Source of the DNA: Streptomyces afghaniensis 772
GTDB lineage: Bacteria; Actinomycetota; Actinomycetes; Streptomycetales; Streptomycetaceae
Assembly (NCBI GenBank): GCA_000415505.1
Contig: KE354184.1
Coordinates: 1-34,549, forward strand
Direction: 5' to 3'
DNA length: 34,549 bases
The translations under genes were made by a program, and so were the position numbers. Position 1 is the stretch's first letter. Every line of letters starts with the position of its first letter. Below, piece after piece: positions 256 to 16,678 of this stretch. The notes below the pieces were generated by a model, which saw only the letters and a list, made by a program, of their open reading frames with translations, was not told the DNA's origin and did no database searches.

Positions 256-1356
256 TCAGCGCAGCGGCGGGCGGTGGCCGACCTGGGCGCGGTCCGCCGC
301 CTGTGCGCCCTCCGACCAGCCCGCCGCGTCACGCACGCCGCGCAGGCGGGTCGTGGTCGTCTCCGGAAACATCCGGTCCAGCCGGCCGGTGACCGCCACC
401 TCTCGGGAGGCGAGGACCGGGAGCAGGTCCTGTGTCACCTGGGTCTCGGCGGCAGCCGCCAGACGGGTGCCGATGCGGTGGGCGTAGGCCGCGAGGAAGG
501 ACTGGCGGAACGTCTTGGTGCGCTTGCGGCCGCCCGCCCGCTGGGCGGCTTCCGCCTTCGTCATCGCGGTCGTGGCCTGCACCAGGAGTGAGGTGTAGAG
601 GAGTTCGACCGCTTCCAGGTCGGTTTCGAAGCCGACGACGGTGGAGAAGCCGAGGGGCTCGTTCCACACCGCCCGGCAGTGGTTGGCGGCGGCGACGGCG
701 TCCAGCAGCACCGCCTTGGCCTGCTCGTACGGCGGTTCGACACCGATCCGGCAGGCCCCGGGCGTCTCGGGCGAGGGTGCCCGGGCCGCGAGCAGCGCCT
801 CGTCGACACTGTGCCGGGCCATCAGCTCCTGCGCCTTGGCGCTGAGCGCCTCCGCCTCCTCCGGGAACCCGGTGGCCTCCGCCTTGGCGAGCAGGGCGCG
901 GATCCGGCCGAGCATCCGGGACTCTGTCCTCGGCTCCCCGGGTGAGTCGTCGAGGGACTCGAGCACGGGCAGGCGCAGCAGCAGGCGGTACAGCTCCAGC
1001 ACGGCGGTGGCGTACGAGAAGCGGTCGGTGCGGGGCGGGGCCTCGGCGGGAAGTTCCGCGAGCTGCGCGCTCCAGCGGCGGCCGCGCGGGCGGTCGTGCG
1101 GCACCTGCGCGCGGATCAGTGCCGCCACCAGTCGTACGTGTACGTCGTCCAGTTCGCGCCGCACGATGCGTACGACGTCGGCCGGCTGCCAGCCGCGCCG
1201 CCAGGCCGCCGCCACGAACTCCGCACCGCGCCGGGCGAGTTCGTCATCGGCCGCCAGGTCGGACGCGAGCAGGGACGCGCCGGTGTCGAGGGCCGTCTCG
1301 CCGGTGTCGTACAGGGCGGCCTCGAACGCGCGGTCGACGGTGGTGGGCGTACTCAC
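256..1356 (-). CDS. DUF2786 domain-containing protein
   Basis: A 366-residue cytoplasmic protein of unknown function. The recognisable part is a DUF2786 segment (MLGRIRALLAKAEATGFPEE, then EALSAKAQELMARHSVDEAL) in the middle, followed by the C-terminal region that usually accompanies it in actinobacteria, with a basic stretch (GGRKRTKTFRQSF). No transmembrane segment or signal peptide is seen. I chose the GTG at 1356 (VSTPTTVDRAF). The frame stays open to 1440, but a start there would put coding sequence across the palindrome and promoter of the divergent gene, and the extra residues look non-coding. No Shine-Dalgarno sequence is visible before the GTG. The gene is head to head with the ClpC2-like gene and may share its operator. 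Function cannot be inferred further. Confidence 0.85.
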   Translation of the reverse strand: MSTPTTVDRAFEAALYDTGETALDTGASLLASDLAADDELARRGAEFVAAAWRRGWQPADVVRIVRRELDDVHVRLVAALIRAQVPHDRPRGRRWSAQLAELPAEAPPRTDRFSYATAVLELYRLLLRLPVLESLDDSPGEPRTESRMLGRIRALLAKAEATGFPEEAEALSAKAQELMARHSVDEALLAARAPSPETPGACRIGVEPPYEQAKAVLLDAVAAANHCRAVWNEPLGFSTVVGFETDLEAVELLYTSLLVQATTAMTKAEAAQRAGGRKRTKTFRQSFLAAYAHRIGTRLAAAAETQVTQDLLPVLASREVAVTGRLDRMFPETTTTRLRGVRDAAGWSEGAQAADRAQVGHRPPLR

Positions 1357-1405
1357 GGGGCCGATGGTGCCATGCCGGCACGGGCGGCCCGGCAGGCGGG
1401 ACAGA

Positions 1406-1455
1406 GTGTCAACTCGCGGTTGACACCCGGCGGGGCGCAACCTACGGTTGACACC
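1406..1455 (+). promoter_or_regulatory. Leaderless promoter overlapped by a GTGTCAAC-N5-GTTGACAC operator plus a third half-site
   Basis: A perfect inverted repeat has arms GTGTCAAC (1406-1413) and GTTGACAC (1419-1426) around a 5-bp spacer. A third GTTGACAC lies at 1447-1454, 28 bp downstream of the second. A -35 box TTGACA (1420-1425) is separated by 17 bp from a -10 box TACGGT (1443-1448). The -10 is followed by 7 bp and then the ATG at 1456, so transcription should start at or next to the A of the start codon, and no Shine-Dalgarno sequence is present. The operator arms cover the -35 and the -10/start region, which is the geometry of a repressor site. The likely repressor is the HTH-bearing product of the gene itself (inference). 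Confidence 0.7.
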
Positions 1456-2199
1456 ATGACGACGAACCCCGACATCACGTCATCCGTGCGCCTCGACGAC
1501 CTGATCGCGGCCATCAAGACGGTGCACCAGGAACCCCTCGAACAGCTCCAGGACGCGGTGCTCGCCGCCGATCACCTCGGCGAGGTGGCCGACCACCTGA
1601 TCGGCCACTTCGTGGACCAGGCCCGACGTTCGGGTGCCTCCTGGACGGACATCGGCAAGAGCATGGGGGTCACCCGGCAGGCCGCGCAGAAGCGCTTCGT
1701 GCCGAAGGAGTCGGCCGACCTCGACCCGAGCCAGGGCTTCAACCGCTACACGCCCCGCGCCCGCAACACGGTGATGGCCGCGCACAACGCGGCCAAGTCC
1801 GCGCGCAACGCCGAGGGCGTGCCCGAGCACCTCGTCCTCGGTCTGCTGGCCGAGCCCGACGGCCTCGCCGCGAAGGCGCTCGTCGAGCAGGGCGTCTCCC
1901 TCGACACGGTGCGCGAGGCGGCGACCGCCGCACTGCCGCCGGCCGTCGAGGAGGCCCCCGAGCTGGTGCCGTACGGCCAGGCCGCGAAGAAGGTTCTGGA
2001 GCTCACGTTCCGCGAGGCCCTGCGCCTCGGCCACAACTACATCGGCACCGAGCACATCCTGCTCGCCCTGCTGGAGCACGAGAACGGCGAGGGCGTCCTC
2101 AGCGGCCTGGGCATCGGCAAGGAACGGACCGAGCAGTACGTGGCGGAGGTGCTGGAGAAGATCGTGCAGGCACAGAAGGAGACACCGGACGGGGCGTGA
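1456..2199 (+). CDS. ClpC2-like protein: HTH plus stand-alone ClpC N-terminal domain
   Basis: A 247-residue protein with no ATPase module. Residues 61-82 (ASWTDIGKSMGVTRQAAQKR) look like a helix-turn-helix. Residues 94-160 and 171-237 are the two Clp_N repeats; the second (AAKKVLELTFREALRLGHNY, then IGTEHILLALLE) is almost the ClpC consensus. Stand-alone HTH + Clp_N proteins match mycobacterial ClpC2 (Rv2667, about 250 residues). From memory, that protein is reported to bind cyclomarin-type antibiotics through its Clp_N domain, sparing ClpC1, and to repress its own promoter. The same role is inferred here: a cytoplasmic decoy and autoregulator, or an adaptor for ClpC clients. The mRNA appears leaderless (see the 1406-1455 promoter). 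It is divergent from the DUF2786 gene. Alternative reading: a general stress regulator with a Clp_N sensory domain. Confidence 0.85.
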   Translation: MTTNPDITSSVRLDDLIAAIKTVHQEPLEQLQDAVLAADHLGEVADHLIGHFVDQARRSGASWTDIGKSMGVTRQAAQKRFVPKESADLDPSQGFNRYTPRARNTVMAAHNAAKSARNAEGVPEHLVLGLLAEPDGLAAKALVEQGVSLDTVREAATAALPPAVEEAPELVPYGQAAKKVLELTFREALRLGHNYIGTEHILLALLEHENGEGVLSGLGIGKERTEQYVAEVLEKIVQAQKETPDGA

Positions 2200-2230
2200 C
2201 GGGTCCGCCGAGCTGCGGGCAGTCGTGCCA

Positions 2231-2254
2231 CTGGGGCCACACGGGTGGGCCCAG
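2231..2254 (+). terminator. Possible terminator of the ClpC2-like gene
   Basis: A hairpin about 30 bp after the stop codon: CTGGGGCCAC pairs with GTGGGCCCAG around the loop ACGG, with one mismatch in ten pairs. No T-run follows, which is common in Streptomyces. Confidence 0.4.
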
Positions 2255-2600
2255 CCGCACCCCCGCTCCGCCGGGCTGCCCGCCCGGGCGGGGGCCGGGA
2301 CCTAGGCCGGCCATCGCGGCTGACGGAGACCCCGCCCGGAGCGGGGTCGGGCGGCCACCGCCCCGGCCCCGGACGGCGCCCCCGACGTGATCGGGGCCGG
2401 CCGGCCACCGTGCCCGGGCGGCGCTCGAGACCGCGACCGCACCAAGGCCGGGACAGCCACCGTGGCCGGGGCGGCGGCTGCGACGATGACGGGCACCATG
2501 GCTGGGACGCACCCCAGAGCGGGACGGCCACCGCGACTGGGACGGCGACCGAGCCGAGGCCGGGACCGGCGCGGCCACCGCGACGGGGACCGCGACCGGG

Positions 2601-2670
2601 ACAGCCACCGCAACCCGAACCCGGACCAGAACAGCCACCGCAACCCGAACCCGGACCAGGACAGCCACCC
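2601..2670. repeat. 30-bp tandem repeat, two near-identical units plus a partial third
   Basis: 2601-2629 and 2631-2659 are identical over 29 bases (starting ACAGCCACCG, ending CCGGACCAG). A third copy begins at 2661 and breaks after nine bases. Diverged units with the same ACAGCCACCG or ACGGCCACCG core extend left to about 2450. On the minus strand the array reads as GTGGCTGT(C/T)CTGGTC units. The array lies directly upstream of the polymerase gene. Confidence 0.8.
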
Positions 2671-2723
2671 GGGCCGGGCCGTGGTGAGGGGGCGTTGTCA
2701 GACCCCCCTGGCACACTCGCAGC

Positions 2724-4410
2724 ATGGCCGACCGGTGGGCGCTCGCTCCGGCCGAGGATGGTGGCGTGGACGTCGCCCCCCTCGGTCCGGACGGGGTGCC
2801 CGCCGGGCCGGTGCGGCGGGAGGCGGATCCCGCCGAGGCCGTACGGAGCCGTCCCGGCGTCACGCGGTGGGTGTGGCGGTCCACCGCCGAGGTCTACCCG
2901 CGCCTGCTCGCCACGGGGGTGCGAGTCGAGCGGTGCTACGACGTCGAGGCCGCCGAGACGCTCCTCCTCGGCCACGAGGGGCGGTACGGGGAACCCCGCT
3001 CGGCCGGGGCCGCCCTGGCCCGGCTGCGCGGCGGCCCCGTACCGCCCGATCCGCCGCAGCGTTCCGCCGAACCGGGCTCCCAGTCCTCCCTGTTCGAACC
3101 ACAGGGCGTCCACCTGCCCCTGGCGGACCTCCTCGCGGTCTACGCCGAGCAGCAGAAGCGGCACGCGCAGGCCGAGCACCCCGAGCGGATGCGCCTGCTG
3201 ACCGCCTCCGAGTCGGCCGGCATGCTGGTGGCCGCCGAGATGAACCGCGCCGGGCTGCCCTGGCGCGCCGAGGTCCATCGCACGGTGCTGCACGACCTGC
3301 TGGGCGAGCGGTACGCGGGCGGTGGCGAGCCGCGCCGCCTGGCCGAGCTGGCCGACGAGGTGTCCGCGGCGTTCGGCCGCCGGGTGCGGCCCGATCTGCC
3401 CGCCGACGTGGTCAAGGCCTTCGCGCAGGCCGGGATCAAGGTCGCCTCGACCCGCCGCTGGGAGATCGAGTCCGTCGACCACCCGGCCGTGAAACCCCTG
3501 CTGGAGTACAAGAAGCTGTACCGCATCTGGGTCGCCCACGGCTGGTCCTGGCTCCAGGACTGGGTGCGCGACGGTCGCTTCCGGCCCGAGTTCCTCGCGG
3601 GCGGGACGGTGACCGGGCGCTGGGTGACCAACGGCGGGGGCGGGCTCCAGATCCCCAAGGTGATCAGGCGGGCCGTGGTCGCCGACCCCGGCTGGCGGCT
3701 CGTCGTCGCCGACGCCGACCAGATGGAGCCGCGCGTCCTCGCCGCGATCTCCCGCGACCCCGGCCTGATGGAGGTGGCCGGCCGCGACAGCGACCTGTAC
3801 CAGTCCGTCTCCGACCGCGCCTTCTCCGGCGACCGCGCCCAGGCCAAACTCGCCGTGCTCGGCGCGGTCTACGGCCAGACCTCCGGCGACGGCCTGAAGA
3901 ACCTCGCCGCGCTCAGACGCCGCTTCCCCCGCGCGGTGGCGTACGTCGACGAGGCGGCCCGCGCCGGCGAGGAGGGCCGGCTCGTGCGGACGTGGCTCGG
4001 CCGGACCTGCCCGCCGGCAGCCCGGGGGAGACGACGCGACGGAGGAGGCCGGCATCCCGGCCACCGACGAGGAGCAGCCCGACAGCGGACAGTGGGTGCC
4101 CGGGTACGCCTCCACCAACGCCCGCGCCCGCGGCCGCTTCGCCCGCAACTTCGTCGTCCAGGGCAGCGCCGCCGACTGGGCCCTGCTGCTGCTCGCCGCG
4201 CTGCGCAGATCCTGCGCGGACCTGGCGGCCGAGCTGGTCTTCTTCCAGCACGACGAGGTGATCGTGCACTGCCCCGAGGAGGAGACGGAGACGGTCGTCG
4301 CGGCGATCCGCGAGGCGGCGGCCCTGGCCGGCCGGCTGACCTTCGGGGAGACGCCGGTGCGGTTCCCGTTCACGACGGCGGTGGTGGAGTGTTACGCGGA
4401 CGCCAAATAG
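2724..4410 (+). CDS. Family A (Pol I-like) DNA polymerase, annotated in actinobacteria as bifunctional 3'-5' exonuclease/DNA polymerase; frameshifted
   Basis: About 561 residues once a frameshift is repaired. A short N-terminal domain in the exonuclease position lacks an obvious DxE motif. It is followed by the polymerase palm and fingers: TVTGRW (about 293), GGLQIPKVIRR in the template-binding region, motif A VVADADQMEPRVLA (Asp near 330), and motif B RAQAKLAVLGAVYG (about 371-385). Motif C (FFQHDEVIVH) and the end of the protein lie in a different frame, from about 4030 to the TAG at 4408-4410. One extra G in the run at 4024-4028 explains the shift. If real, the mutation removes motif C and inactivates the enzyme. 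Motif A differs from the DYSQIELR of Pol I, so this is a paralogue, probably for repair, not polA. No Shine-Dalgarno sequence precedes the ATG. Confidence 0.8.
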
Positions 4411-4429
4411 CCCAATAGCCCAGTAGCCC
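4406..4429 (+). repeat. 8-bp tandem repeat carrying TAG stops in all three frames
   Basis: Three units, AATAGCCC, AATAGCCC and AGTAGCCC, start inside the polymerase stop codon. Because the unit is 8 bp, the TAGs at 4408, 4416 and 4424 fall in three different frames. A short AGCCC/GGGCT hairpin follows (4426-4442) in the 38-bp gap between the convergent genes. Confidence 0.7.
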
Positions 4430-4448
4430 GACAGCCGGGCTCACGGTG

Positions 4449-7400
4449 TCAGTCGGTGGGAGCGAGCAGCTCGCGGAGTTCGGTGACCACCGCGTGCGCG
4501 TCGGTCCCCTCCAGTGCCGCGAGAGCCGAGCGCCACTCCTCGCGTGCCGCTCCGGCCTGCCCCCGTTCCCGTAGCAGCAGCCCGTGCTGGTGGCGGGCGA
4601 GACCGCCGGCGTAGTGGTCGGCGCGGGCGTCGGCCCGGTCCAGCAACTCGGCGCACTCGCGGGCGGCCCGCCCGGTGCTGCCCAGCAGTCGCAGCGCGCG
4701 GACCAGGCCGAGCCGGGTCTGGGACTCGCCGTGCCAGTCGCCGTGGCCGCCCAGGATGCGCAGACTCTCCTCGAAGTGCGGGAGGGCGGCGGCCGGTTCC
4801 CCGAGCCGCAGATGGGCGTACCCGATGTTGCAGTGCGCGGAGTGCCGCACGATCACGGCGCCGATCTCGTCCCCGATGGCGAGCGAACGCCGGTGCTGCT
4901 CGATGGCGGCCCGCGGGTCGGTGTGCTCGTAGAGGTTGCCGAGGTGGCTGTGGGTGACGGCCTCGCCGTACGGGTCGTTCAGCTGCCGTGCGTACTCCAG
5001 GCTCCGGGTCAGCGCCTCGCTCGCCTCGGCGTGCCGGCCGAGCCCGTCGAGCAGCAGACCGCGGTTGTTGAGGCAGCGGCGGATCCAGGACGGGTCGTCG
5101 AGCCGTCGCCAGATGGCCAGCGCGCGGTCGTTGAGGTCGAGGGCGTCGCTCTGGCGGCCGGTCAGGAAGTGCAGCCCGGCGAGGTCGACCAGCGCGTACG
5201 CCTCCGCGGCCGCGTCCCCGAGCCGCCGCGCCACGCCCAGACCGGCCCGGCCGAGCACCTCCGTCTCGGCGACGCGGCCCCGGCGGTGCGCGCAGGGGAG
5301 GATCAGCCGTACGAGAGTGGAGACGAGGCCCGCGCGCCGCCGGCACGGGTCGTCCGCGTACCGCTCGACCAGGGTGACGACGTTCGCCAGCTCGCTGTCG
5401 CCCCAGGCGAAGGCCTCCTCGGGGCTGCCGAAGGGGGCGACGGTCTCGACGTGCGCCGCGTGCCCGGGCGGCTGGGCCGCGGTGGGGCGGCGACGGTCGT
5501 CCTGGTCGGGGCCGGGCTCGACGATCGCGACGAGCACCCGCTCGGCGACGGCGGCGTACCAGCGCAGGGCGGTTTCGCAGGCGTCGGTGCCCTCCGTACC
5601 CCACTCCCCCGCCAGCTCACGGGCGAAATCGCGGACGAGGTCGTGCGGCGCGTAGCGGCCGTACGCCGGCTCCTGGAGCAGGGCCACGTCGACGAGGCGG
5701 TCCAGGGCGGCCTCGGTGCGGCGTTCGCCCGTGCCGGTGAGGCGGGCGAGCAGGGGTGCGCCGTACGTGGGCAGGTCGAGCGCCCCGATACGGCGGAGGG
5801 TGAGGGCCGCGTCCCGGTCGGCCTCGCGCTCGGAGCCGGCGAGCGCGTCGTGCGCGACGGCCAGGGAGCGGCGCACACTCAGGTCGTCGTACTCGAGGTG
5901 CCGCAACCGCCCTTCCGTCTCGGACAGTTGCCCGGCGAGGACCTCCGGTGTGAGGGCATGCCGGGCGGCGAGCCGCGCGGCGACGACGCGCAGGGCCAGG
6001 GGCAGCCGGCCGGTGAGTTCGACGAGACGGCGGGCGGCGTCCGAACCGCCCAGGCCGTCCCGCCCCGAGGCCGCGGCCAGGAGCGCCGCGCTCTCCTCGT
6101 CCGACAACGGGCCGAGCGGAAAGCGGGCGACGCCGTCGAGAGCGGTGAGCGGCGAACGGCTGGTGACGATCACCGCGCACCCGGCACCGCCCGGCAGCAG
6201 CGGCCGTACCTGCGCGGCACTCGCGGCGTCGTCCAGCACCAGCAGCGTGCGGGTCGGCGCTAGGAGCGAGCGCAGCAGAGCGGATGCCGCGTCGGGGCGT
6301 TCGGGGATGCGGCAGGGCTCGGCCCCGAGGTCACGCAACAGGGCGGTGAGCGCCTGACCTGGGGTCAGAGGGGCCATGCCCGGGGTCGCACCGTGCAGGT
6401 CGAGGTAGAGCTGCCCATCGGGGAAACGTTCCGCCAACTCGTGCGCGACGTGCAGCGCGAGTGCGCTCTTGCCGACGCCGGGCATGCCGCTGATGACGGC
6501 GGCGGGGAAAGCCGGGGTGTTCGGGGCACTGGAGGCAGTCGGGCCGCTCGGGGACGGCGGTCCCGGTGTCGTGAGGGAGCGGCGCAGGGCGTCGCGTACG
6601 GCGGCACGCCCCGTGAAATGCGCCGGCGGCGGGGGAAGCTGAGCGGGCGGCGGCTGAGCGGACGAGGGTGGCCTCCCCACGGCCCCCCGCAACACCTCCA
6701 CATGCGCCTCCCGCACCCCCGGCCCCGGCTCGATGCCGAGTTGGTCGACCAGTCGGGTGCGCAGGTCGCGGTGGACGGCCAGGGCATCGGCCTGGCGGCC
6801 GGTCCGGTGCAGGGCGAGCATGAGCTGGCGGTGGTACACCTCCCGCAGCGGGTACTCGGCGGTCAACGCCGCCAGCTCCGGCACGAGCCCGTCGAGACGC
6901 GGGCCGCCCAGCGCCAACTCGGCGTCGTGGCGCCACTCCAGAAGCAGCAGCCGGGCCTCGCGCAACCGCCGTGCGAGGGCGTACCCGCCCACCTCGGACG
7001 GCAACCCGGCGAGCGGCGCACCCCGCACAGCGCGAGCGCGGCGGCGCACTCACGCACGACGCGCTCCCATTCCTGCCCGGCGTGCGCGGCCCGCGCCGCG
7101 GCGACGTGGGCATCGAACACATGGACGTCCAGCTCACCCTCGTCGACCCGCAGCACATACCCGGACGGCACGGTTCGCAGCCGCTCGGGGGCGTCGAGCA
7201 CCCGCCGCAACCGGGCTATGTGGTTGTGCAGCGAGGCCTGGGCGGAAACGGGCGGCGCCCCGCCCCACAGCGCCTCCTTGAGCGACTCGACGGAGACGAC
7301 CCGTCCGGCGTCGAGCAGCAACGCGGTCAGCAGCACCCGGGACTTGGGACTCGCGACGTCCCTCGCTTCGCTCCGGCCGCGCCCGTTGACGTCGTAGTAC

Positions 7401-7486
7401 AGCGCCGGCGACCCGAGCAGCCCGAAGCGCAGCCCGCACCGCTCACCGGAACCGTCCTCGCTGCCCGAACAGGCAGATGCCCCCAT
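4449..7486 (-). CDS. AfsR-like SARP transcriptional regulator (winged helix-BTAD-NB-ARC-TPR); frameshifted
   Basis: About 1,012 residues when one base is restored. Order of domains: OmpR-type winged helix (from about 17, LRFGLLGSP; PKSRVLLTALLL; WGGAPPVSAQASLHNHIARL), BTAD (about 115-265), NB-ARC ATPase with Walker A GMPGVGKSA near 334 and Walker B LLVLDDA near 413, and TPR-like repeats from about 700 to the end. This is the AfsR architecture: an ATP-dependent activator of secondary metabolism or development. The start is the ATG at 7486, preceded by GGGGGGCGTGAG. The frame breaks near 7021-7027: the upstream part ends ECAAALAL and the downstream part resumes in another frame at RGAPLAGLPSEVGG. 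An added base restores the family-typical LWRGAPL. As written, only about 155 residues plus a tail would be made. It is convergent with the polymerase gene. Confidence 0.85.
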
Positions 7487-7849
7487 CTCACGCCCCCCGT
7501 CTCCCCGCACCACCGCCCTTGACGATTTTCCGCCCCCGGGGCAGCGGTTTTCCGCCACCTTCGTTCTCATGTTCTCCACCGGAACAGCCCCGCACAGGCC
7601 GTCGTCCGTCATGGTTCGGCGACTTCACGCCAATCGGCAGACGACGCAACGGAGAACCGTTGGCCACATGTTAGCGATCCGTTGGCAAACCCTGATGTGA
7701 TCACTACGTCGGATCTGGCCCGGCGGCGCGCGCGTCTGGACGCGCAACTCGGGGGAGTGTCGCCGCCGCGGCCGGGTCCGGGTCCCGGTCGGCGGAGGTG
7801 AACGGCCGGGGCCCCACCAACTTCCTGCCGCCTGGCGCAGTCCTCGGCG
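7487..7849. other. 363-bp intergenic region upstream of the SARP gene
   Basis: No credible coding frame. The region lies between the SARP start and the glycosyltransferase stop (both genes leftward), so it must hold the SARP promoter. It contains the CCGTTGGC repeats at 7647-7686. The stretch 7740-7830 is plain high-GC sequence with overlapping CCGGGTCC runs and no clear hairpin. Confidence 0.6.
7647..7686. promoter_or_regulatory. Direct repeat CCGTTGGC spaced 22 bp, with an adjoining inverted half-site
   Basis: CCGTTGGC occurs at 7657-7664 and again at 7679-7686, exactly 22 bp apart (two helical turns). The first copy also pairs with CAACGG at 7647-7652 across AGAA to form a perfect 6-4-6 inverted repeat. 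A loosely related GCCAATCGG lies at about 7629. SARP proteins bind heptamer direct repeats spaced by 11 or 22 bp, so this is a candidate SARP (possibly autoregulatory) site, 160-200 bp upstream of the SARP start. Confidence 0.45.
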
Positions 7850-8743
7850 TCAGATGACCGGCGGCCGCCCCAGCCGCGTGAGCCGCCACACCGTCCGCCA
7901 GCGCATGGGCCGCCGCTCACCGGCCGACTCCCGTACGCCTTCCACGAACCCGCCGAACCATGCCCGCAGCCCCGCACGCGACCGGTTCCGTGCGAGGGTG
8001 AGCAGCACCCAGACGCCGAGGTGGACGGGGACGAGCGCGAGCGGCAGCCGGCGGCGGGCCAGCCAGACCCGGTTGCGGGCGTTCACCCGGTAGTAGATGG
8101 CGTGCCGGGCGGGCGAGGTCTTCGGGTGCTGGAGCAGCAGTTCGGGCGCGTACAGGATGCGCCAGCCCGCGTCGGCCGCGCGCCAGGCCAGGTCGGTCTC
8201 CTCGTGCGCGAAGAAGAACTCGGCGGGCCAGTCGCCGACTTGGTCGAGCATGGCCATCCGCAGCGCGTGCCCGCCGCCGAGGAACCCGGTGACGTACCCG
8301 CCCCGCAGGGGGTCCGAGTTGCCGATCCGGGGCACGTGCCGCTGCTGCGTCTCGCCCAGCTCGTCGGCGATGCGGAAGCCGACGATGCCGAGCCGCTCGT
8401 CGGCGGCGTACAACTCCTGCACGCGGCGCAGCACATCGGCGTCGACGAGCAGCCCGTCGTCGTCCAGATCCACGACGACGTCGATGTCGCCGAACTCCCG
8501 CAGCCGCGCGAGGGCCGCGTTCCGGCCGCCGGGACAGCCGAGGTTCTCGTCGAGCTCGATCGGGGTGACCTCGCCGGGCAGCGACAGCCGCCGGGCGAAC
8601 TCGGGCAGCGGGCAGCCGTTGCCGACGATCACGATCCGCTCGGGCGGCACGTCCTGCTTGGCCACGGACCGCAGCAGCGCGTCGACCTCCTCGGGCCGAT
8701 TGCCCATCGTCACCACGGCGACGGCGATCCTGGGCGCCCCCAT
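7850..8743 (-). CDS. Glycosyltransferase family 2
   Basis: 297 residues. The N-terminus has the GT-A pattern of family 2: VAVVTMGNRPEEVDALLRSV, then NLGCPGGRNAAL and an acidic nucleotide-sugar/metal site VVDLDDDGLL near residue 95. An acceptor-region loop FFAHEETDLAWRAADAGW sits near 175-192 and HPKTSPARHAIYY follows. The C-terminal part (LPLALVPVHLGVWVLLTLA) is a hydrophobic helix with basic flanks, suggesting membrane association. Relatives of this type transfer rhamnose or similar sugars to cell-surface polymers; the exact donor and acceptor cannot be read from the sequence. The ATG at 8743 has a GAGGTGAGG ribosome site. The 208-bp gap to the divergent AraC-type gene holds both promoters; no consensus boxes stand out. 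Confidence 0.85.
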   Translation of the reverse strand: MGAPRIAVAVVTMGNRPEEVDALLRSVAKQDVPPERIVIVGNGCPLPEFARRLSLPGEVTPIELDENLGCPGGRNAALARLREFGDIDVVVDLDDDGLLVDADVLRRVQELYAADERLGIVGFRIADELGETQQRHVPRIGNSDPLRGGYVTGFLGGGHALRMAMLDQVGDWPAEFFFAHEETDLAWRAADAGWRILYAPELLLQHPKTSPARHAIYYRVNARNRVWLARRRLPLALVPVHLGVWVLLTLARNRSRAGLRAWFGGFVEGVRESAGERRPMRWRTVWRLTRLGRPPVI

Positions 8744-8951
8744 GTCCTCACCTCGTCCCGGTCGGCAACTGACGGGTTGCCGGGCGATGCTAGCCGTTCA
8801 CGGTAAAGACCCCTTAAGTACGCCTGCCGGACGGCGGTGCGCCTACGCCGTTCGGCGGATGCGGCACCCGACCCGATCGGGCACAGGATGTCGGGTGCGG
8901 CAGGGTGCGCGCTGCCTAGCGTGGTGATCACCGAAGAGGAAGGAACCGGGC

Positions 8952-9833
8952 GTGCTGGAGCGGCTCAACCAGGCGATGGAGCACATCGAGCGCCATCTCG
9001 ACGAGTCCGTGGACGGCGCCGAACTGGCGCGGATCGCGACCACGTCGGAGTACCACCTGCGCCGGATGTTCTCTGCGCTGGCAGGTATGCCCCTGTCGGA
9101 GTACATCCGCCGCCGACGGCTGACGGTCGCGGGCTCGGAAGTGCTCGCGGGCGGCGAGACGCTGCTGGAGATCGCGGTGCGCTACGGCTACGGCTCGGGC
9201 GAGGCGTTCGCACGGGCGTTCCGCGCGATGCACGGCGTGGGTCCGGGCGAGGCCCGGCGCACCGGCGCCGCGCTCGTCTCCCAGCCCCGGCTGACCTTCC
9301 GCCTCACCATCGAAGGGAGCAGCAGCATGCACTACCGAGTAGTGGACCGCCCGGCCTTCACCGCCGTCGGCTTCAAGACCCGGGTACCGCTCGTGCACTC
9401 GGGCCCGAACCAGGCGATCGTCGACTTCGTCCGGGGGCTCGACAAACAGGCCCTGGAGCAGCTCGGAAAGCTCTCGGACCTGGAGCCGCACGGCATCGTC
9501 GCGGTCTGCGACGACCTGGACCCGAGCCGCGCCGAGGGCACCGAACTCGACTACTACCAGGCAGCGCTCACCACGGCGTCCGCACCGGCCGGCGCCCCCG
9601 CGGGCACCACCACCCTGCCCGTCCCGCCCGGCACCTGGGCGGTCTTCACCGCCTCCGGCCCGGCACCGCGGGCCATCCAGGAGCTGTGGCGGGACGTGTT
9701 CACCGAGTGGTTCCCGTCCAACCCGTACCGCAGCCGCCCCGGCCCGGAGATCCTCCGGACCGACCTCTCGGCGGACGGGACGACAGCGGACGCCGAGCTG
9801 TGGCTGCCGGTGGAGCGGGAGACGAGCCGCTGA
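8952..9833 (+). CDS. AraC-family regulator with GyrI-like effector-binding domain
   Basis: 293 residues. The two AraC helix-turn-helices are at the N-terminus (about 1-105: DGAELARIATTSEYHLRRMF and LLEIAVRYGYGSGEAFARAF). A GyrI-like/Bacterial effector-binding (SOUL-like) fold follows (about 125-293: YRVVDRPAFTAVGFKTRVPL, then PPGTWAVFTASGP and a C-terminal AELWLPV). This Rob/SoxS-like layout usually senses small amphiphilic or toxic molecules and activates detoxification genes. The start is the GTG at 8952, supported by GAGGAAGGAACCGGGC just upstream. The divergent glycosyltransferase is a possible target. It ends 53 bp before the convergent permease, with a strong shared terminator between them. 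Confidence 0.9.
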   Translation: MLERLNQAMEHIERHLDESVDGAELARIATTSEYHLRRMFSALAGMPLSEYIRRRRLTVAGSEVLAGGETLLEIAVRYGYGSGEAFARAFRAMHGVGPGEARRTGAALVSQPRLTFRLTIEGSSSMHYRVVDRPAFTAVGFKTRVPLVHSGPNQAIVDFVRGLDKQALEQLGKLSDLEPHGIVAVCDDLDPSRAEGTELDYYQAALTTASAPAGAPAGTTTLPVPPGTWAVFTASGPAPRAIQELWRDVFTEWFPSNPYRSRPGPEILRTDLSADGTTADAELWLPVERETSR

Positions 9834-9836
9834 ACG

Positions 9837-9879
9837 CCGAGAGCCCCGGGCCGGAATCGGTCCGGCCCGGGGCTCTCGG
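9837..9879. terminator. Bidirectional terminator between the AraC-type gene and the permease
   Basis: A perfect 19-bp stem around the 5-base loop ATCGG (9856-9860), with arms at 9837-9855 and 9861-9879 (core GAGAGCCCCGGGCCGG). It sits between two convergent genes and can serve both. Confidence 0.85.
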
Positions 9880-9885
9880 GGGCGG

Positions 9886-11358
9886 CTACCGCGGCGCGGC
9901 CGTCTCCGCGGTGTCCTTCCGGCGGGCCCGCTCCCGGACCAGCGAGATCGCGATCACCAGCGCGGCGACGAGCACCGAGAGCAGCACCTGGCTGCGGCCG
10001 CCGCCCTCCTTGCCGTCGGTGAGCATGTAGAGGAGGACGAACGTGATCATCCCGATCGTCGCCCACGTCAGATAGGGGAACAGCCACATCCGGACGACGA
10101 GCTTCTCCGGGCTCTCGCGCAGGATGATCCCCCGCATCCGTAGCTGCGAGAAGCAGATGACCAGCCAGACGAAGAGCGCGACGGCGCCCGAGGAGTTCAG
10201 CAGGAACTGGAAGACCGTGTCCGGCCACAGGTAGTTGAAGGCGACCGCCACGAAGCCGAAGACCACGGAGGCCAGGATCGCGGCCTGCGGGACACCTCGC
10301 GGGTTCGTCCGCGCGAAGGAGTGCGGGGCGTCGCCGCGCTGCCCGAGGGAGAAGGCCATCCTGGAGGCGGTGTAGAGGCCGGAGTTGAGACAGGACAGCA
10401 CGGCGGTCAGCACGATGAAGTTCATGATCTCGCCGGCGTGCGGGATGCCGATCGAGTCGAGGGCCGCGACGTACGAGCCCTTCTTCTCGATCGCGGGGTC
10501 GTTCCACGGCAGCAGGGCGACCACGACGAGGATCGAGCCGACGTAGAAGACACCGACCCGCCAGATCACGCTCCTGGTGGCCTTGGCCACCGCCCGCCGC
10601 GCGTCCGAGGACTCACCGGCGGCGAGGGTGACGATCTCGCTGCCCATGAAGGAGAAGACGACCAACAGGATGCCGGTGAGGATCGCCCCCGGTCCGTTCG
10701 GCAGGAAGCCGCCGTGCTCGGTGAGATTTCCGAATCCCGTGGAGGCGTGGTCGGAGCCGGGCAGCACACCGAAGATGGCCAGCCCGCCGAGGACGATGAA
10801 GCCCGCGATGGCGACGACCTTGATGCCGGCGAACCAGAACTCGAACTCGCCGAAGGAGCCGACCGAGGCCAGGTTCGTGGCGGTGAGGACCGTCATCACG
10901 ATCAGGGCCCAGGCCCACTGCGGTACGGCCGGCACCCACCCTTCCAGGATGACGGCGCCCGCGGTCGCCTCCACGGCGAGGACGACGACCCAGAAGAACC
11001 AGTACAGCCAGCCGATCGAGAACCCGGCCCAACGGCCGAGCGCTCGGTCCGCGTAGGCCGAGAAGGACCCGGAAGTCGGGTTGGCCGCGGCCATCTCGCC
11101 GAGCATCCGCATCACGAAGACGACCAGGGCGCCGACCAGTGCGTAGGACACGAGGATGCCGGGCCCGGCGGCGGCGATGCCGGAGGCGGAGCCCACAAAG
11201 AGACCGGCACCGATCACCCCGCCGATGGCGATCATGGACAGATGGCGGTTCTTGAGACCGGCCTTCAGACCTGCCTGCTGCTCCGGAGGCTGACCACTGG
11301 TGGACGGAGCGGTATCAGGGGTCAGTGAATCGGGGGGACGTGTAGTCATGTTCGACAT
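9886..11358 (-). CDS. Amino acid permease (APC superfamily, GabP/AnsP-like)
   Basis: About 490 residues with twelve predicted membrane helices. The family signature is clear at the N-terminus: LKNRHLSMIAIGGVIGAGLF, then GEMAAANPTSGSFSAYADRA and the conserved SFMGSEIVTLAAGE and ASRMAFSLGQRGDAP. These are typical of the proton-coupled amino acid transporters GabP, AnsP and CycA. The substrate is probably an amino acid or GABA but is not determinable here. The start is uncertain: ATG at 11358 (MSNMTTRPP), ATG at 11349, or a GTG at 11412; none has a strong ribosome site. The PucR gene lies upstream on the same strand, 285 bp away, with a near-palindrome in between, suggesting PucR or another regulator controls uptake. 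Confidence 0.9.
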   Translation of the reverse strand: MSNMTTRPPDSLTPDTAPSTSGQPPEQQAGLKAGLKNRHLSMIAIGGVIGAGLFVGSASGIAAAGPGILVSYALVGALVVFVMRMLGEMAAANPTSGSFSAYADRALGRWAGFSIGWLYWFFWVVVLAVEATAGAVILEGWVPAVPQWAWALIVMTVLTATNLASVGSFGEFEFWFAGIKVVAIAGFIVLGGLAIFGVLPGSDHASTGFGNLTEHGGFLPNGPGAILTGILLVVFSFMGSEIVTLAAGESSDARRAVAKATRSVIWRVGVFYVGSILVVVALLPWNDPAIEKKGSYVAALDSIGIPHAGEIMNFIVLTAVLSCLNSGLYTASRMAFSLGQRGDAPHSFARTNPRGVPQAAILASVVFGFVAVAFNYLWPDTVFQFLLNSSGAVALFVWLVICFSQLRMRGIILRESPEKLVVRMWLFPYLTWATIGMITFVLLYMLTDGKEGGGRSQVLLSVLVAALVIAISLVRERARRKDTAETAAPR

Positions 11359-11532
11359 CCATGGGGTCGTTGGGAGTGCCGTGCTGTGCGTCAGGAGGGA
11401 CGGTCGGGGCACTGACGATTCCCGGAAGCGTTCACGGTGCGGTTCGCGGAATCCGGATGTCGTGCCGGTGATCGGGTCGTCACCGCACGTCCGCGTTTCG
11501 CTCCGTCTCCTCGTGGGAGGTGGGCCGCATCA

Positions 11533-11556
11533 CTTGCGGAAATGGATTTGCGCAAG
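11533..11556. promoter_or_regulatory. Near-perfect 24-bp palindrome upstream of the permease
   Basis: CTTGCGGAAAT-GG-ATTTGCGCAAG has 10 of 11 symmetric pairs, lies about 175 bp upstream of the permease start and 110 bp past the pucR stop, and sits in a locally AT-richer stretch. A second small inverted repeat, GTTTGT/ACAAAC, lies at about 11583-11602. This is a candidate operator for control of the permease. Confidence 0.5.
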
Positions 11557-11643
11557 CGTATGGGGGTTCATGGGGTCAAATGTTTGTGAAGGCTGAACAA
11601 ACTCGACCTCGATGGCTGTACGACCGGCCAATGCGGAAGCGGT

Positions 11644-13311
11644 TCAGCCGGTGGGCGGCAGCCGCAACTGGAGCATGGCCAGCAGCCGCTGGTCGGGACG
11701 GCTGAGATCGAGGCCGGTCAGCTGCTCGGCCCGGCGAAGGCGGTACCGCAGCGTGTTGGGGTGCACATGGAGCTGTGCGGCCGCCGCTCGTATGTCACCG
11801 AAGGAGTTGAGGTACGTCAGAAGCGTCTCGGCGAGCCGGCCCTGATGCCGGCTGTCGTGCGAGACCAGGGCCGTCAGCCGGGGATCCCGTATCTCGGGGT
11901 GGGCGGAGAGCAACGTCAATATCTCGCTGACCAGCACCTCCGCCTGGATGTCCGGCAGCGCGGCGACGGCGACGGTCACTCCGGCGCTCACCATGGCGTC
12001 GAGTATGCGGTCGGCCTCCCGGCGTGACTCGAAAACGTCCCCGAGCCCCGGCACCAGGCAACCGACCGAGCCGCGCAGTGGCAGGCCGAGGTGGCGGCGT
12101 GCGGCGTCGGTGATCTCCTGGGCCCAGCCGCGCAGCGTGTCCGTGTCGACGCCGCGGGGCAGCTGGGGCAGCAGCACATAGATACGGGGATCGACCTGGG
12201 TGACCAGGGCGCTGCGGTGCCGGGCGGCGATGTGCACGGAGACCAGGTTGGTGACCTCGGAGTGAGTCAGTTCCGGTGCGGCGGCGCCCTCCGGGATCTC
12301 GTACCCCTCTGTGGTCCCGTATGCCTCTGTGGTCCCGTACGAGAAACCCAGCACGGCGGCCGGGCGGCCGGCGTCGAATCCCAGGTGCGTGGCCAGCGGC
12401 TGCGGTCCGGTGCTCCCGTCGAGGAGTCCGGCCAGCAGGGTCCGGGTGAGCGTCACATCGTCCGAGAGCTCCCGGCGACGGCGCACGAGATGGAGCGCCG
12501 CGACCCGGGCGGCACCCAGCAGTGCCTGGCGCGAGCGTTCGGACAGCGGAACCGAGCCCTCCTGCACCCAGATGGTGCCCAGCTGCCGGTCCCCGGACCT
12601 GATCGCCACTGCGAGCCGACGACGGATGCCCAGCTCGGGGTGGCTGTCGATACCGATCACCTCGTCGCTGGAGTGCAGGTGCTGGAACACGCCCCACTCG
12701 CGCAGCTTCGCCAGATACCCTTCCGGTCCCTGCCAGCCGAGGATGGAGCGCCGGCGCAGGTCGTCCGCCTCGTCGGAGTCGGTGGTGCGGGAGTAGGCCA
12801 GCACCCGGTTCGCGGCGTCCTCGATGCTGACGATGCCGCTGGTGAGGATGGCGGTGGTCTGGGCGAGCGAGAACAGGTCGCCCTCCTCGGCCCCCATGCC
12901 CGGCCCGCCCGGCGGTGCGTCGTCGAGGGCGGCCCGGGCCAGCGCGTTCACCTGCTCCCAGCGTGCTTCGCTGCGCAGCGAGAGCAGGGCGACCCCGGCC
13001 TCGGCAGCGGTCTCGCTGAGCGCCGCGGCCTGGCCTGGCCCGTCCAGCTTGACCACGACTGCGGCGGCTCCGTCCCGCCCGGCGGCCCGTAGCGCGGGGA
13101 AAGCGGCCCGGCCCCGGGCACCGATCACGAGAACCAGCTCGCCCGGCTGCGCGGTCGGCGGATCCTCCGGATCGAGCAGCGAGACGCCACGGATCTCGAC
13201 GTCCAGCCCGGCGGGAGCGGCCTGCACCTCCACCAACGAATCACCCAGCACCATCAGCAACTGACGCAGGCCGATGCTCGCTGCGGTGGGAGACACTGCG
13301 GCCGGGTCCAT
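11644..13311 (-). CDS. PucR-family transcriptional regulator
   Basis: 555 residues from the ATG at 13311, chosen because GGAGG (13324-13320) precedes it by 8 bases; a GTG at 13329 has no such site. The N-terminal region is the PucR purine-catabolism-like domain (LRQLLMVLGDSLVEVQAA, GELVLVIGARG). The middle is GAF/GGDEF-like (LRGSVGCLVPGLGDVFESRR, then EADRILDAM). The C-terminal PucR helix-turn-helix is LTYLNSFGDIRAAAAQLHVH, then PNTLRYRLRR (about 505-535). Family members sense nitrogen metabolites and regulate catabolism or uptake, which fits the downstream permease. A six-residue tandem duplication (YGTTEA/YGTTEG) interrupts the middle. The gene starts only 60 bp after the tRNA-Thr gene on the same strand, with a terminator in the gap, so its promoter placement is unusual. 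Confidence 0.9.
   Translation of the reverse strand: MDPAAVSPTAASIGLRQLLMVLGDSLVEVQAAPAGLDVEIRGVSLLDPEDPPTAQPGELVLVIGARGRAAFPALRAAGRDGAAAVVVKLDGPGQAAALSETAAEAGVALLSLRSEARWEQVNALARAALDDAPPGGPGMGAEEGDLFSLAQTTAILTSGIVSIEDAANRVLAYSRTTDSDEADDLRRRSILGWQGPEGYLAKLREWGVFQHLHSSDEVIGIDSHPELGIRRRLAVAIRSGDRQLGTIWVQEGSVPLSERSRQALLGAARVAALHLVRRRRELSDDVTLTRTLLAGLLDGSTGPQPLATHLGFDAGRPAAVLGFSYGTTEAYGTTEGYEIPEGAAAPELTHSEVTNLVSVHIAARHRSALVTQVDPRIYVLLPQLPRGVDTDTLRGWAQEITDAARRHLGLPLRGSVGCLVPGLGDVFESRREADRILDAMVSAGVTVAVAALPDIQAEVLVSEILTLLSAHPEIRDPRLTALVSHDSRHQGRLAETLLTYLNSFGDIRAAAAQLHVHPNTLRYRLRRAEQLTGLDLSRPDQRLLAMLQLRLPPTG
12306..12339 (-). repeat. 18-bp in-frame tandem duplication inside pucR
   Basis: Sixteen identical bases at 12306-12321 and 12324-12339, period 18, adding six residues (YGTTEA next to YGTTEG) to the PucR protein without breaking the frame. 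Confidence 0.8.
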
Positions 13312-13330
13312 GATCGTCGCCTCCAGCACA

Positions 13331-13365
13331 AAGGGCCAGGTCAGAGATCATCTGACCTGGCCCTT
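13331..13365 (-). terminator. Strong hairpin between tRNA-Thr and pucR
   Basis: A perfect 15-bp stem (AAGGGCCAGGTCAGA with its complement) around the loop GATCA. In the transcription direction it follows the tRNA 3' end by 6 bases and ends in a short T-run, just before pucR. Confidence 0.85.
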
Positions 13366-13371
13366 GAGAAG

Positions 13372-13445
13372 AGCCGCCTTCGGGATTCGAACCCGAGACC
13401 TACGCATTACGAGTGCGTTGCTCTGGCCATCTGAGCTAAGGCGGC
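13372..13445 (-). tRNA. tRNA-Thr, anticodon CGT
   Basis: A 74-base cloverleaf: 7-bp acceptor stem GCCGCCT/AGGCGGC, D stem GCTC/GAGC, anticodon stem ACGCA/TGCGT with loop CTCGTAA (anticodon CGT, reading ACG), T stem TCGGG/CCCGA with loop TTCGAAT, discriminator T. CCA is not encoded. It lies between the peptidase terminator and the pucR terminator. No consensus -35/-10 pair is obvious upstream. No integrase or att-like duplication is next to it. Confidence 0.97.
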
Positions 13446-13516
13446 GCGCTGTCCGCACTATGGTGCGATCAGCAACGACGGTAAGTCTACACAGTTTCCG
13501 AGGGTGCTCCGCACCA

Positions 13517-13541
13517 GCCCCGGAGGCTGGGTCTCCGGGGC
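13517..13541 (-). terminator. Terminator of the S33 peptidase gene
   Basis: A perfect 9-bp stem GCCCCGGAG/CTCCGGGGC around the loop GCTGGGT, 11 bases after the stop codon in the leftward direction. Confidence 0.7.
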
Positions 13542-13552
13542 CGGCGCAGGGG

Positions 13553-15187
13553 TTATGAGCAGCGCTTGCCGTCCGTGGGTGGGGTGCCGCGCAGGAGGTA
13601 CGCGTTGATCGTGCGGTCGATGCAGGAGCTGCCGCGGCCGTACGCGGTGTGCCCGTCGCCCTCGTAGGTGAGCAGGCGGGCCGAGGAGAGCTGGCCCGCC
13701 AGGGCCTTCGCCCAGCGGTACGGGGTCGCTGGGTCGCGGGTGGTGCCGACCACGACGATGGGGGCGGCGCCCTTCGCCTCGATGCGGTGCGGCTCGCCGG
13801 TGGCGTGCACGGGCCAGTACGCGCAGTTCAGGGAGGCCCACGCCAGGCCCTCGCCGAAGACCGGGGACGCCTTCTCGAACGTGGGCAGCGCCCTGCGCAC
13901 CTCGTCGGGGGTGTCGAAGGCGGGGGGCAGGTCCAGGCAGTTCACGGCCGCGTTGGCGAACATCAGGTTGCTGTAGCCGCCGTCGGCGTCCCGCTCGTAG
14001 TAGCCGTCGGAGAGGACGAGGAGGCCGGAGCCGTCGTTCTTCTTCATCGCGGACGTCAGCGCCTCGCGCAACTGCTGCCAGGCGCCCTCGTCGTACATGG
14101 CCGCGATCACGCCCGTCGTGGCGAGCGACTCGGTGAGGCGGCGGCCGTCGGGGGCGCCGGTGGCGGCCGGCCGCGCGTCCAGCTTCTCGAAGAACGCCTT
14201 GAGGTTCTCGCCGACCTGCTCGGGCGAGGTGCCCGCGCCGCCCAGCGGGCAGTCCTTGAGCCGTACGCAGTCCCGCGCGAACGACCGGAACGCCGTCTCG
14301 AAGCCCGCCGTCTGTTCGAGGTTCAGCCGCCGCGCGGGCAGCGACGGGTCCATCGCGCCGTCCAGCACCAGCCGGCCCGCCCGTTCCGGGAAGAGCCCGG
14401 CGTACGTCGCCCCGAGGAACGTTCCGTAGGAGGCGCCGACGTAGTTCAGCTTCTTGTCACCGAGCGCCGCCCGCACGATGTCCATGTCCCGGGCCGCCTC
14501 GACGGTGGACACATGGCGCAGCAGCCGGGGCGAGTCCGCGCCGCAGCCCTCGGCGAACGTCCGGTACGCCCTGACCAGTCCGTCGGTCTCCTTGACGTCG
14601 TCGGGTGTGTTGTCCGTCTGCGTGTAGGTGTCCATCGCCGGCCCGTTCAGACACCTGACGGGCTCGCTGCGGGCCACGCCGCGCGGGTCGACCGCCACCA
14701 TGTCGTAGCGGGCACGGACCTCGGCCGGGTAGCCGATGCCGGCGTACGCCTGGACGTAGCCGATCGCCGAGCCGCCCGGCCCGCCGGGGTTCACGAGCAG
14801 CGAACCCAGCCGCTTCCCCGGACCTGTGGCCTTCTTGCGGGCGACGGCGAGCCGGACGTCTCCGGCGGCCGGCTTGGCGTAGTCGAGCGGCGCCTTGATC
14901 GTGGCGCACTCGAAACCGGAGACGCCGCAGCCGCGCCAGGCCGGCTTCTGTCCGTAGTACGGAGTGAGCGCCGCGGGGGTGGCCCGCGGCAGCGCGACCA
15001 GTGCCGCTTGCTCCGCCGCGGCCGTGGCGGACGTCGTCGAGCTCCCGGAGGAGCAGGCGGAGACGAGCAGCACGGCCGTGGCGAGGAGGCCGGCCGCGGT
15101 CCTGGCTCCGCCGCGGGTCCGGCGGTGCAGACCGCCGGAACGGGAGACAGAGCGGTCGGCGGAGCGGGGGGTGCGCCTTGTGTCCAT
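13553..15187 (-). CDS. Secreted alpha/beta-hydrolase, tripeptidyl aminopeptidase-like (S33, Tap/Slp family), probable lipoprotein
   Basis: 544 residues. A basic n-region is followed by a hydrophobic stretch and a lipobox LLVSAC (Cys45), so the protein is probably exported and lipid-anchored. The mature part is an alpha/beta-hydrolase: oxyanion region VNPGGPGGSA near 133, nucleophile elbow GASYG (Ser253), catalytic Asp485 (TTRDPATP) and His513 (GDGHTAYG), with the TAP C-terminal region. It matches mycelium-associated Tap/SlpD/SlpE peptidases, which release N-terminal tripeptides from extracellular proteins. The ATG at 15187 lacks a Shine-Dalgarno site; a -10-like TACGCT lies 6 bases upstream, suggesting a leaderless mRNA. 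It is downstream of holB on the same strand, 133 bp away, likely with its own promoter. Confidence 0.9.
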   Translation of the reverse strand: MDTRRTPRSADRSVSRSGGLHRRTRGGARTAAGLLATAVLLVSACSSGSSTTSATAAAEQAALVALPRATPAALTPYYGQKPAWRGCGVSGFECATIKAPLDYAKPAAGDVRLAVARKKATGPGKRLGSLLVNPGGPGGSAIGYVQAYAGIGYPAEVRARYDMVAVDPRGVARSEPVRCLNGPAMDTYTQTDNTPDDVKETDGLVRAYRTFAEGCGADSPRLLRHVSTVEAARDMDIVRAALGDKKLNYVGASYGTFLGATYAGLFPERAGRLVLDGAMDPSLPARRLNLEQTAGFETAFRSFARDCVRLKDCPLGGAGTSPEQVGENLKAFFEKLDARPAATGAPDGRRLTESLATTGVIAAMYDEGAWQQLREALTSAMKKNDGSGLLVLSDGYYERDADGGYSNLMFANAAVNCLDLPPAFDTPDEVRRALPTFEKASPVFGEGLAWASLNCAYWPVHATGEPHRIEAKGAAPIVVVGTTRDPATPYRWAKALAGQLSSARLLTYEGDGHTAYGRGSSCIDRTINAYLLRGTPPTDGKRCS

Positions 15188-15320
15188 CCTGCGAGCGTAA
15201 CTCTGGGCGACGAAATGGATGCCCAGCGTGCGTGTCGTGCCTCGTACGAGTTACGGCGTCAATTCCTCGTCTGCTTCGTGCGCGGCGCCAGGCGGTACCA
15301 GGCGGTGGCGCTCTGCCGGC

Positions 15321-16526: not shown

Positions 16527-16678
16527 GGGTCACGCCGCCCTTTCGTCACGTTCCACGGTGCCGGATCCATTGTGGGGGTGACCACTGACAACGCCTGCCC
16601 TCGCCTGCTCCCCCGGGCCCGGCCCGTGGCCCGTCTCCGGCGTCGGCCCGGGCTTCCCTGGCGGACGAGCCGGAGGCC

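Follow-up and report, generated by a model that had tools for sequence, protein, structure and literature searches.

An ATPase-free ClpC2 with an intact autorepression signature at a conserved Streptomyces locus

Background

In mycobacteria, ClpC2 has been described as a cyclomarin-responsive autorepressor (PMC10030653). The motif CGTCAAC-n5-GTTGACG is reported to lie directly 5' of clpC2, often in two copies, where it covers a promoter described as putatively leaderless (Taylor et al. 2023, PMC10030653); the seven species in the legend of Fig. 4b of that paper include no Streptomyces. A published idea is that the C-domain of the protein holds the DNA. According to a further report, ClpC2 of M. 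tuberculosis (Mtb) is triggered by, and buffers, desoxycyclomarin only, not ilamycin or an ecumicin analogue; ecumicin and rufomycin/ilamycin bind it less well than desoxycyclomarin does, and the binding of the ecumicin analogue by its C-domain is weak, at 43.8 uM (PMC12913811).

The name ClpC2 is also used in the literature on Streptomyces Clp proteases, where it denotes a Clp ATPase that partners ClpP (PMC9765437, PMC12607617); the protein described here shares only the name and differs in having no ATPase. No account of an ATPase-free ClpC2 in Streptomyces was found in the open-licence PMC literature. Streptomyces is the genus that makes cyclomarins and rufomycins. As to how producers protect themselves, it has been suggested that a ClpX-like gene carried by a rufomycin-like cluster plays this part (PMC8068612).

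Here we describe a ClpC2-like gene in a stretch of 34,549 nucleotides from Streptomyces afghaniensis 772 (hereafter the window), for which a reading of the sequence alone (the sequence-only reading) had proposed a self-resistance decoy against ClpC1 inhibitors. The results would extend the ClpC2 sense-and-sponge circuit, known from mycobacteria, to Streptomyces; almost all orthologs read retain both operators. We conclude that the gene encodes a genuine ClpC2 with an intact autorepression signature at a conserved locus, for which homology suggests a sense-and-sponge role and to which cyclomarin is an imperfect fit.

Domain build and family identity

The gene (window 1456-2199, forward strand) encodes a protein of 247 residues in which a helix-turn-helix (HTH) N-domain precedes two Clp_N repeats and which contains no ATPase, as the sequence-only reading had it (Table 1). 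That reading also held that mycobacterial ClpC2 has the same build, and the fold comparison agrees: the best matches are all ClpC2 domains, the C-domain from both M. smegmatis and Mtb and the N-domain from Mtb. Models of Clp proteins match the N-terminal part only and the AAA+ modules are absent, so that the protein is not a Clp/Hsp100 ATPase. It combines two Clp_N repeats lacking an AAA+ module with the ClpC2-specific N-domain, including the dimer residues D46 and R57. The domain build, fold and salt-bridge residues of the dimer are thus all shared with mycobacterial ClpC2 (Rv2667 and the M. smegmatis protein; PDB 8ADA, 8AD9, 8B9O). The salt-bridge pair known from Mtb, D46 and R57, is invariant in 132/132 proteins, and R186 and R190, corresponding to Mtb R185 and R189, are kept in 98/98 proteins of the genus. 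From its sequence we take the window gene to be the Streptomyces ortholog of ClpC2, a predicted ATPase-free mimic of the ClpC1 N-terminal domain (NTD).

Mean entropy is 0.25 at residues 61-81, the HTH region, against 1.22 at residues 93-157. The 8ADA crystal covers residues 4-72 and stops short of the predicted recognition helix (74-81). This predicted HTH offers an alternative, or an addition, to DNA contact through the C-domain.

Table 1. Coordinates of the ClpC2-like gene, its control region and its neighbours in the window, and of the clpC2 gene near a cyclomarin-type cluster in genome G160
Feature	Position	Strand	Basis or remark
Divergent neighbour, DUF2786 protein, conserved synteny	256..1356	-	neighbour scan, synteny
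Operator 1, GTCAACTCGCGGTTGAC	1408..1424	.	exact match to core of published ClpC2 operator (motif: PMC10030653)
-35 box TTGACA, within operator 1	1420..1425	+	17-nt spacer to -10
Operator 2, CGCAACCTACGGTTGAC	1436..1452	.	2 mismatches; ends 3 bases before ATG
-10 box TACGGT (TANNNT), within operator 2	1443..1448	+	7 nt before ATG
ClpC2-like gene, 247 aa	1456..2199	+	domain matches, orthology, fold matches
Helical N-domain / dimer part, residues 13-59	1492..1632	+	fold match, conservation
Predicted helix-turn-helix, residues 63-81 (helices 63-70 and 74-81)	1642..1698	+	strongly conserved
Double Clp_N domain, residues 95-236, putative ClpC1-NTD mimic	1738..2163	+	domain and fold matches
F95 = ClpC1 F2 = Mtb ClpC2 F96, kept	1738..1740	+	98/98 genus, 29/35 other genera
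Y173 = ClpC1 F80 = Mtb ClpC2 F172, F to Y	1972..1974	+	residue counts
E182 = ClpC1 E89 = Mtb ClpC2 E181, kept	1999..2001	+	98/98 genus, 30/35 other genera
Neighbouring gene downstream, 3'-5' exonuclease/DNA polymerase family; frame interrupted near 4.02 kb	2724..4410	+	neighbour scan
clpC2 of G160, locus L287 (G160:C124:1500-21300)	17472-18218	-	cyclomarin-type genes end 6.6 kb away

The domain in PDB entries 9p2p, 9p39 and 9p4h, named ClpC2, is 99% identical over 154 residues to the protein of another genome of the genus (G192) and at most 84% identical to those of the other loci listed; it comes from another species and, like the window protein, has tyrosine at the F80 position. A Streptomyces-type ClpC2 domain has therefore already been solved, and no relevant paper carrying these codes was found in the open-licence PMC literature. 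The view that such proteins are little described in this genus thus holds for the papers, as far as the open-licence PMC literature goes, and not for the structures.

The antitoxin RelI (PDB 9SDC) is weakly similar to the window protein in the N-domain/HTH part (phmmer 5.3e-5, residues 34-87), and some RelI homologs have been suggested to have emerged from ClpC2 (PMC13284704). RelI, however, has 85 residues, is paired with a toxin and, according to its authors, gives no evidence of DNA binding. The 247-residue window protein carries a Clp_N module and lies between a DUF2786 gene and a polymerase-family gene, which sets it apart from the RelS-RelI toxin-antitoxin pairs.

Distribution and gene neighbourhood

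At E<=1e-40, orthologs were found in 167/199 genomes of the genus. The other 32 gave none at this threshold, and a repeat search of three of them at 1e-20 yielded ClpC1-like matches and no others; ClpC2 is therefore not universal in the genus. In the wider class, 49/197 genomes have an ortholog at 1e-34, 14 of the 49 being of the same genus, the window's own included. Of 80 named loci, 79 of them titled Streptomyces and one Kitasatospora, and some cut by contig ends, 75 have the DUF2786 gene in divergent orientation and 75 have the polymerase gene downstream. In the window, whose assembly has 1724 contigs, the frame of the latter gene (2724-4410) is broken, and in another genome (G009) the gene is one open frame of 562 aa; the break is an assembly error or a pseudogene. 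Overall, the window gene has the look of a widespread member of the known ClpC2 family and not of a resistance gene peculiar to one strain.

A second copy at E<=1e-40 is present in 1/199 genomes (G157). This diverged ClpC2 (L272:7710-8426, G157:C92) is 55% identical and has an altered operator pair of its own, GACAAC-N5-GTTGAC. We considered it as a cluster-borne decoy and rejected the idea: the ten genes scanned there, the second copy itself included, contain no NRPS or PKS, its neighbours being S1, membrane-protein, ABC, methyltransferase, permease, Trk, DUF3159 and histidine-kinase genes and one gene with no match.

Operators and promoter

The operator motif, its duplication, the leaderless layout and two of the three key cyclomarin residues are common to the window gene and mycobacterial clpC2. 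The core GTCAAC-N5-GTTGAC lies just upstream of the gene, its second copy with two mismatches, and since the -10 box stands 7 nt before the ATG, the transcript is, by layout, probably leaderless. A generic consensus promoter scan detected no promoter-like site in the region upstream of clpC2 in the window. When the genes of 133 distinct proteins, the window's included, were searched within 150 bp of the start at <=2 mismatches, at least two operator sites were found in 128, one in 4 and none in 1, mostly at -47 to -49 and -19 to -20 (-48 and -20 in the window). All 80 named loci have two or more sites, the start having been chosen with the help of the operator, and the genes of 124/132 proteins are preceded by TTGAC, a spacer of 16-19 nt and a TANNNT that stands 4-10 nt ahead of the start chosen. 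Because the published ClpC2 operator lies twice over the promoter and at least two sites recur in 128 of the 133 proteins' genes, autorepression of the window clpC2 is a well supported prediction.

A longer 19-mer, TGTCAAC-N5-GTTGACA, occurs at <=1 mismatch solely 5' of clpC2 in 6/6 other genomes of the genus that were scanned, with 0 matches for its reversed control; both genomes of other genera that were scanned (G340, G376) have a single match away from clpC2, and G376 additionally has one reversed-control match. The 17-mer at <=1 mismatch has 31 sites in the genome of the window versus 8 for its reversed control, which, together with the matches of the 19-mer elsewhere in other genera, shows that the core motif also occurs apart from ClpC2. 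Within the window, 18 operator-like sites at <=3 mismatches compare with 9.83 expected. A regulon beyond clpC2 was nevertheless rejected: of the four exact 17-mers in the genome, the other three lack the flanking T...A and form an incoherent set: by eye, one precedes a Ser/Thr kinase-like ORF, one falls between other ORFs and one is located within a MarR-like ORF. Elsewhere in this genome, a 183-aa protein that has no Pfam match is weakly similar to the ClpC2 N-domain (L005:1297-1848, G000:C515; E 0.003), and there is a one-mismatch operator some 50 bp ahead of the start listed for it.

Ligand-contact residues

Conservation of the ligand-contact residues had been put forward as a check on the decoy proposal, and the outcome is divided. 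The cyclomarin contacts F96 and E181 of Mtb ClpC2 are retained as F95 and E182, the equivalents of F2 and E89 of ClpC1, whereas F172, at the F80 position, is replaced by Y173. At position 173, the genus has Y in 78 and F in 20 proteins (n=98), and other genera have F in 29, Y in 5 and V in 1 (n=35); the ridge formed by F95 and Y/F173 is aromatic in 98/98 proteins of the genus. One list of ClpC1 mutants engineered to resist cyclomarin includes F80Y (PMC6395927), and yet, by the title of PDB 3wde, this variant has been crystallised bound to cyclomarin A, for which reason Y173 probably reduces cyclomarin binding without abolishing it. Given this change, cyclomarin A is not necessarily the ligand that suits Streptomyces ClpC2 best. 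At the position of ClpC1 L92, 95/98 ClpC2 proteins of the genus have phenylalanine (F185); L92F in ClpC1 is an ecumicin-resistance change (PMC6395927), which fits the weak binding of the ecumicin analogue by the Mtb C-domain. The decoy proposal is supported in part: the protein is of the ClpC2 type and its gene has the operator known from the cyclomarin-responsive autorepressor, but the tyrosine weakens the case. Of the other inhibitors proposed as decoy ligands, ecumicin and rufomycin/ilamycin look less likely because of their poorer binding to Mtb ClpC2 and their failure to induce it (PMC12913811).

The ClpC1 N-domain keeps F2, V13, H77, F80, E89, L92 and L96 in the genome of the window, in 25 others of the genus and in 4 of other genera. 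Eleven ligand positions in ClpC2, of which F2, V13, H77, F80, K85 and E89 come from the literature and R10, V14, Q17, P79 and L88 are ones that we take to be ClpC1 ligand positions, are less variable than random sets from the C-domain (461/20000 sets as low in the genus, 372/20000 overall), a conservation that can equally reflect protein binding or fold constraints; V14 and Q17 are variable among ClpC2 proteins. The tyrosine was also considered as the marker of a single Streptomyces-specific step, which was rejected, as the Y/F label needs 8 changes on a tree of 132 proteins (bootstrap trees give 7-10, and well-supported branches force 4 of the changes, with the bootstrap unsettled and column 173 left in).

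Cyclomarin-type and rufomycin-type clusters

Among 199 genomes of the genus, 39 have a match to the Trp_DMAT prenyltransferase family, as against none of 14 control genomes. A separate search of the genome of the window for this family gave 0 hits, which says little by itself, as no control genome gave a hit there either. Distances to clpC2 were compared by eye, with not every clpC2 place listed and more neighbours possibly hidden, and two Trp_DMAT places were seen within ~12 kb of clpC2, in G160 and G022. The neighbourhood in G160, a genome of another species, is an unexpected lead and the part of this work most worth following. Its cyclomarin-type cluster contains an NRPS end with methyltransferase and thioesterase domains, a prenyltransferase, an acetaldehyde dehydrogenase, an HMGL/DmpG aldolase, a methyltransferase and an FAA hydrolase. 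With the presumed roles of these genes, the set would fit the four-gene ADH cassette mentioned for cyclomarin (PMC8068612) and the formation of ADH from valine and pyruvate (PMC8401383). Past the cluster follow GT2, a BTAD regulator, the polymerase gene and clpC2, in the same order as in the window, with 6.6 kb from the hydratase to clpC2, and the ClpC1 N-domain of G160 is wild type.

At high identity, the G160 prenyltransferase was found in 1/392 genomes of the genus (next 45%), and a search of 394 class genomes found it at 82% in G761, which also has the NRPS and the four-gene cassette. The 100 kb read around the G761 cluster has no match to clpC2, the polymerase, GT2 or DUF2786, so that linkage holds for one of two cyclomarin-type clusters. 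By our estimate, the chance of one cluster landing that near clpC2 in a 7.5-Mb genome is roughly 0.2%, although several families and places were examined. In the single-contig genome G013, a region with a PKS, a NO synthase, P450s, a prenyltransferase and a multimodular NRPS (L320-L321, G013:C1:7630000-7669999) has the gene set given as the rufomycin recipe (PMC8401383) and is predicted to be a rufomycin-type cluster; the sole match to the window protein in G013 at E<=1e-20 is ClpC1-like, and no clpC2 was found. There is no ClpC1-NTD match in 80 kb around this cluster or in 100 kb around that of G761.

A cyclomarin-type cluster may have settled by the clpC2 of its host because the inducible sponge makes the host immune, the locus being ready-made immunity that cyclomarin producers exploit, and rufomycin producers would have no use for clpC2 because rufomycin escapes ClpC2 rescue in Mtb. 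We advance this only tentatively and think it rather unlikely; G160 and G013 fit the pattern, which G761 does not show in the 100 kb read. With the comparison of the three genomes, one specific answer to how producers survive their own ClpC1-directed peptides becomes testable.

The second place, in G022 (L286, G022:C120:44500-64400), was dropped, as six ORFs scanned there include no NRPS; a beta-eliminating (tryptophanase-like) lyase gene lies beside the Trp_DMAT gene, which is ~12 kb from clpC2. Two more distant prenyltransferases, in G533 (44%) and G175 (40%), have no NRPS match of >=300 aa in the 40 kb and, to the contig end, ~25 kb read. In G519 (L328, G519:C24:605000-624999), a relative of 34-37% identity shares 20 kb with an NRPS-like match (608 aa, 36%).

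Proposed mechanism and alternative explanations

We consider it probable that ClpC2 is a dimeric HTH autorepressor whose C-domain copies the N-terminal docking domain of ClpC1 and which, released by ligand, spares ClpC1. At rest, a ClpC2 dimer would occupy the two operators overlapping its own leaderless promoter. A ligand of the ClpC1 N-domain, be it a cyclomarin-like peptide or an exposed hydrophobic or misfolded protein, would fill the C-domain, whereupon ClpC2 would lose DNA binding, clpC2 would be switched on and the protein would accumulate as a sponge, sparing ClpC1. The domain build, orthology, operator and promoter layout and conserved ligand ridge can be read from the sequence itself; dimerisation, DNA binding, ligand release and the sponge effect are expected from the mycobacterial experiments.

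The protein might instead be a sensor or adaptor in proteostasis, its C-domain mainly binding misfolded or tagged clients or competing for ClpC1 adaptors, with antibiotics incidental. We regard this as a possible but lesser candidate: ClpC2 is common in the genus while cyclomarin-type prenyltransferases are rare, and E199, which we take to be the equivalent of the phosphoarginine-site glutamate of B. subtilis ClpC, is kept in 131/132 proteins, but the other glutamate of that site, E124, is kept in just 69/132, and the aromatic ridge suits peptide antibiotics as well. Heat induction and a holdase idea reported for mycobacterial ClpC2 (PMC10030653, PMC12913811) also favour such a role. Were ClpC2 simply left over from a ClpC duplication, autoregulated but without any part in ligand binding, its apparent absence from 32/199 genomes would be expected, but conservation across the class sample extends to the ligand ridge, the dimer residues, the HTH and the two operators, and we find this reading barely credible.

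The original proposal, a producer's self-resistance decoy in this strain, fares little better, and we hold it to be very improbable. Since F2, F80 and E89 are intact in the ClpC1 NTD encoded by this genome, a producer would need protection, and G160 offers a cyclomarin-type cluster close to clpC2. Against it, the genome of the window has no cyclomarin-type prenyltransferase match at E<=1e-20, no NRPS or PKS family occurs in the 10 neighbouring genes scanned (window 256-19956), and, as far as these neighbours and cyclomarin-type genes go, clpC2 does not sit with a producing cluster; the gene is too widespread and its neighbours too conserved, the one second copy is outside a cluster as far as its neighbours were scanned, and the G761 cluster has no clpC2 in the 100 kb read. 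That the window clpC2 is a producer's private resistance gene is accordingly disfavoured.

Other Clp_N proteins were noticed. The genome of the window encodes a 323-aa protein with three Clp_N stretches and no ATPase match (L003:1501-2472, G000:C109). Mycobacteriophage proteins of 221-235 aa, annotated as ATP protease or Clp ATPase, have two Clp_N repeats and no ATPase domain match (L341:768-1475, Myrna gp251; L342:810-1475, Phabba), and are possibly phage-borne mimics of the ClpC1 NTD.
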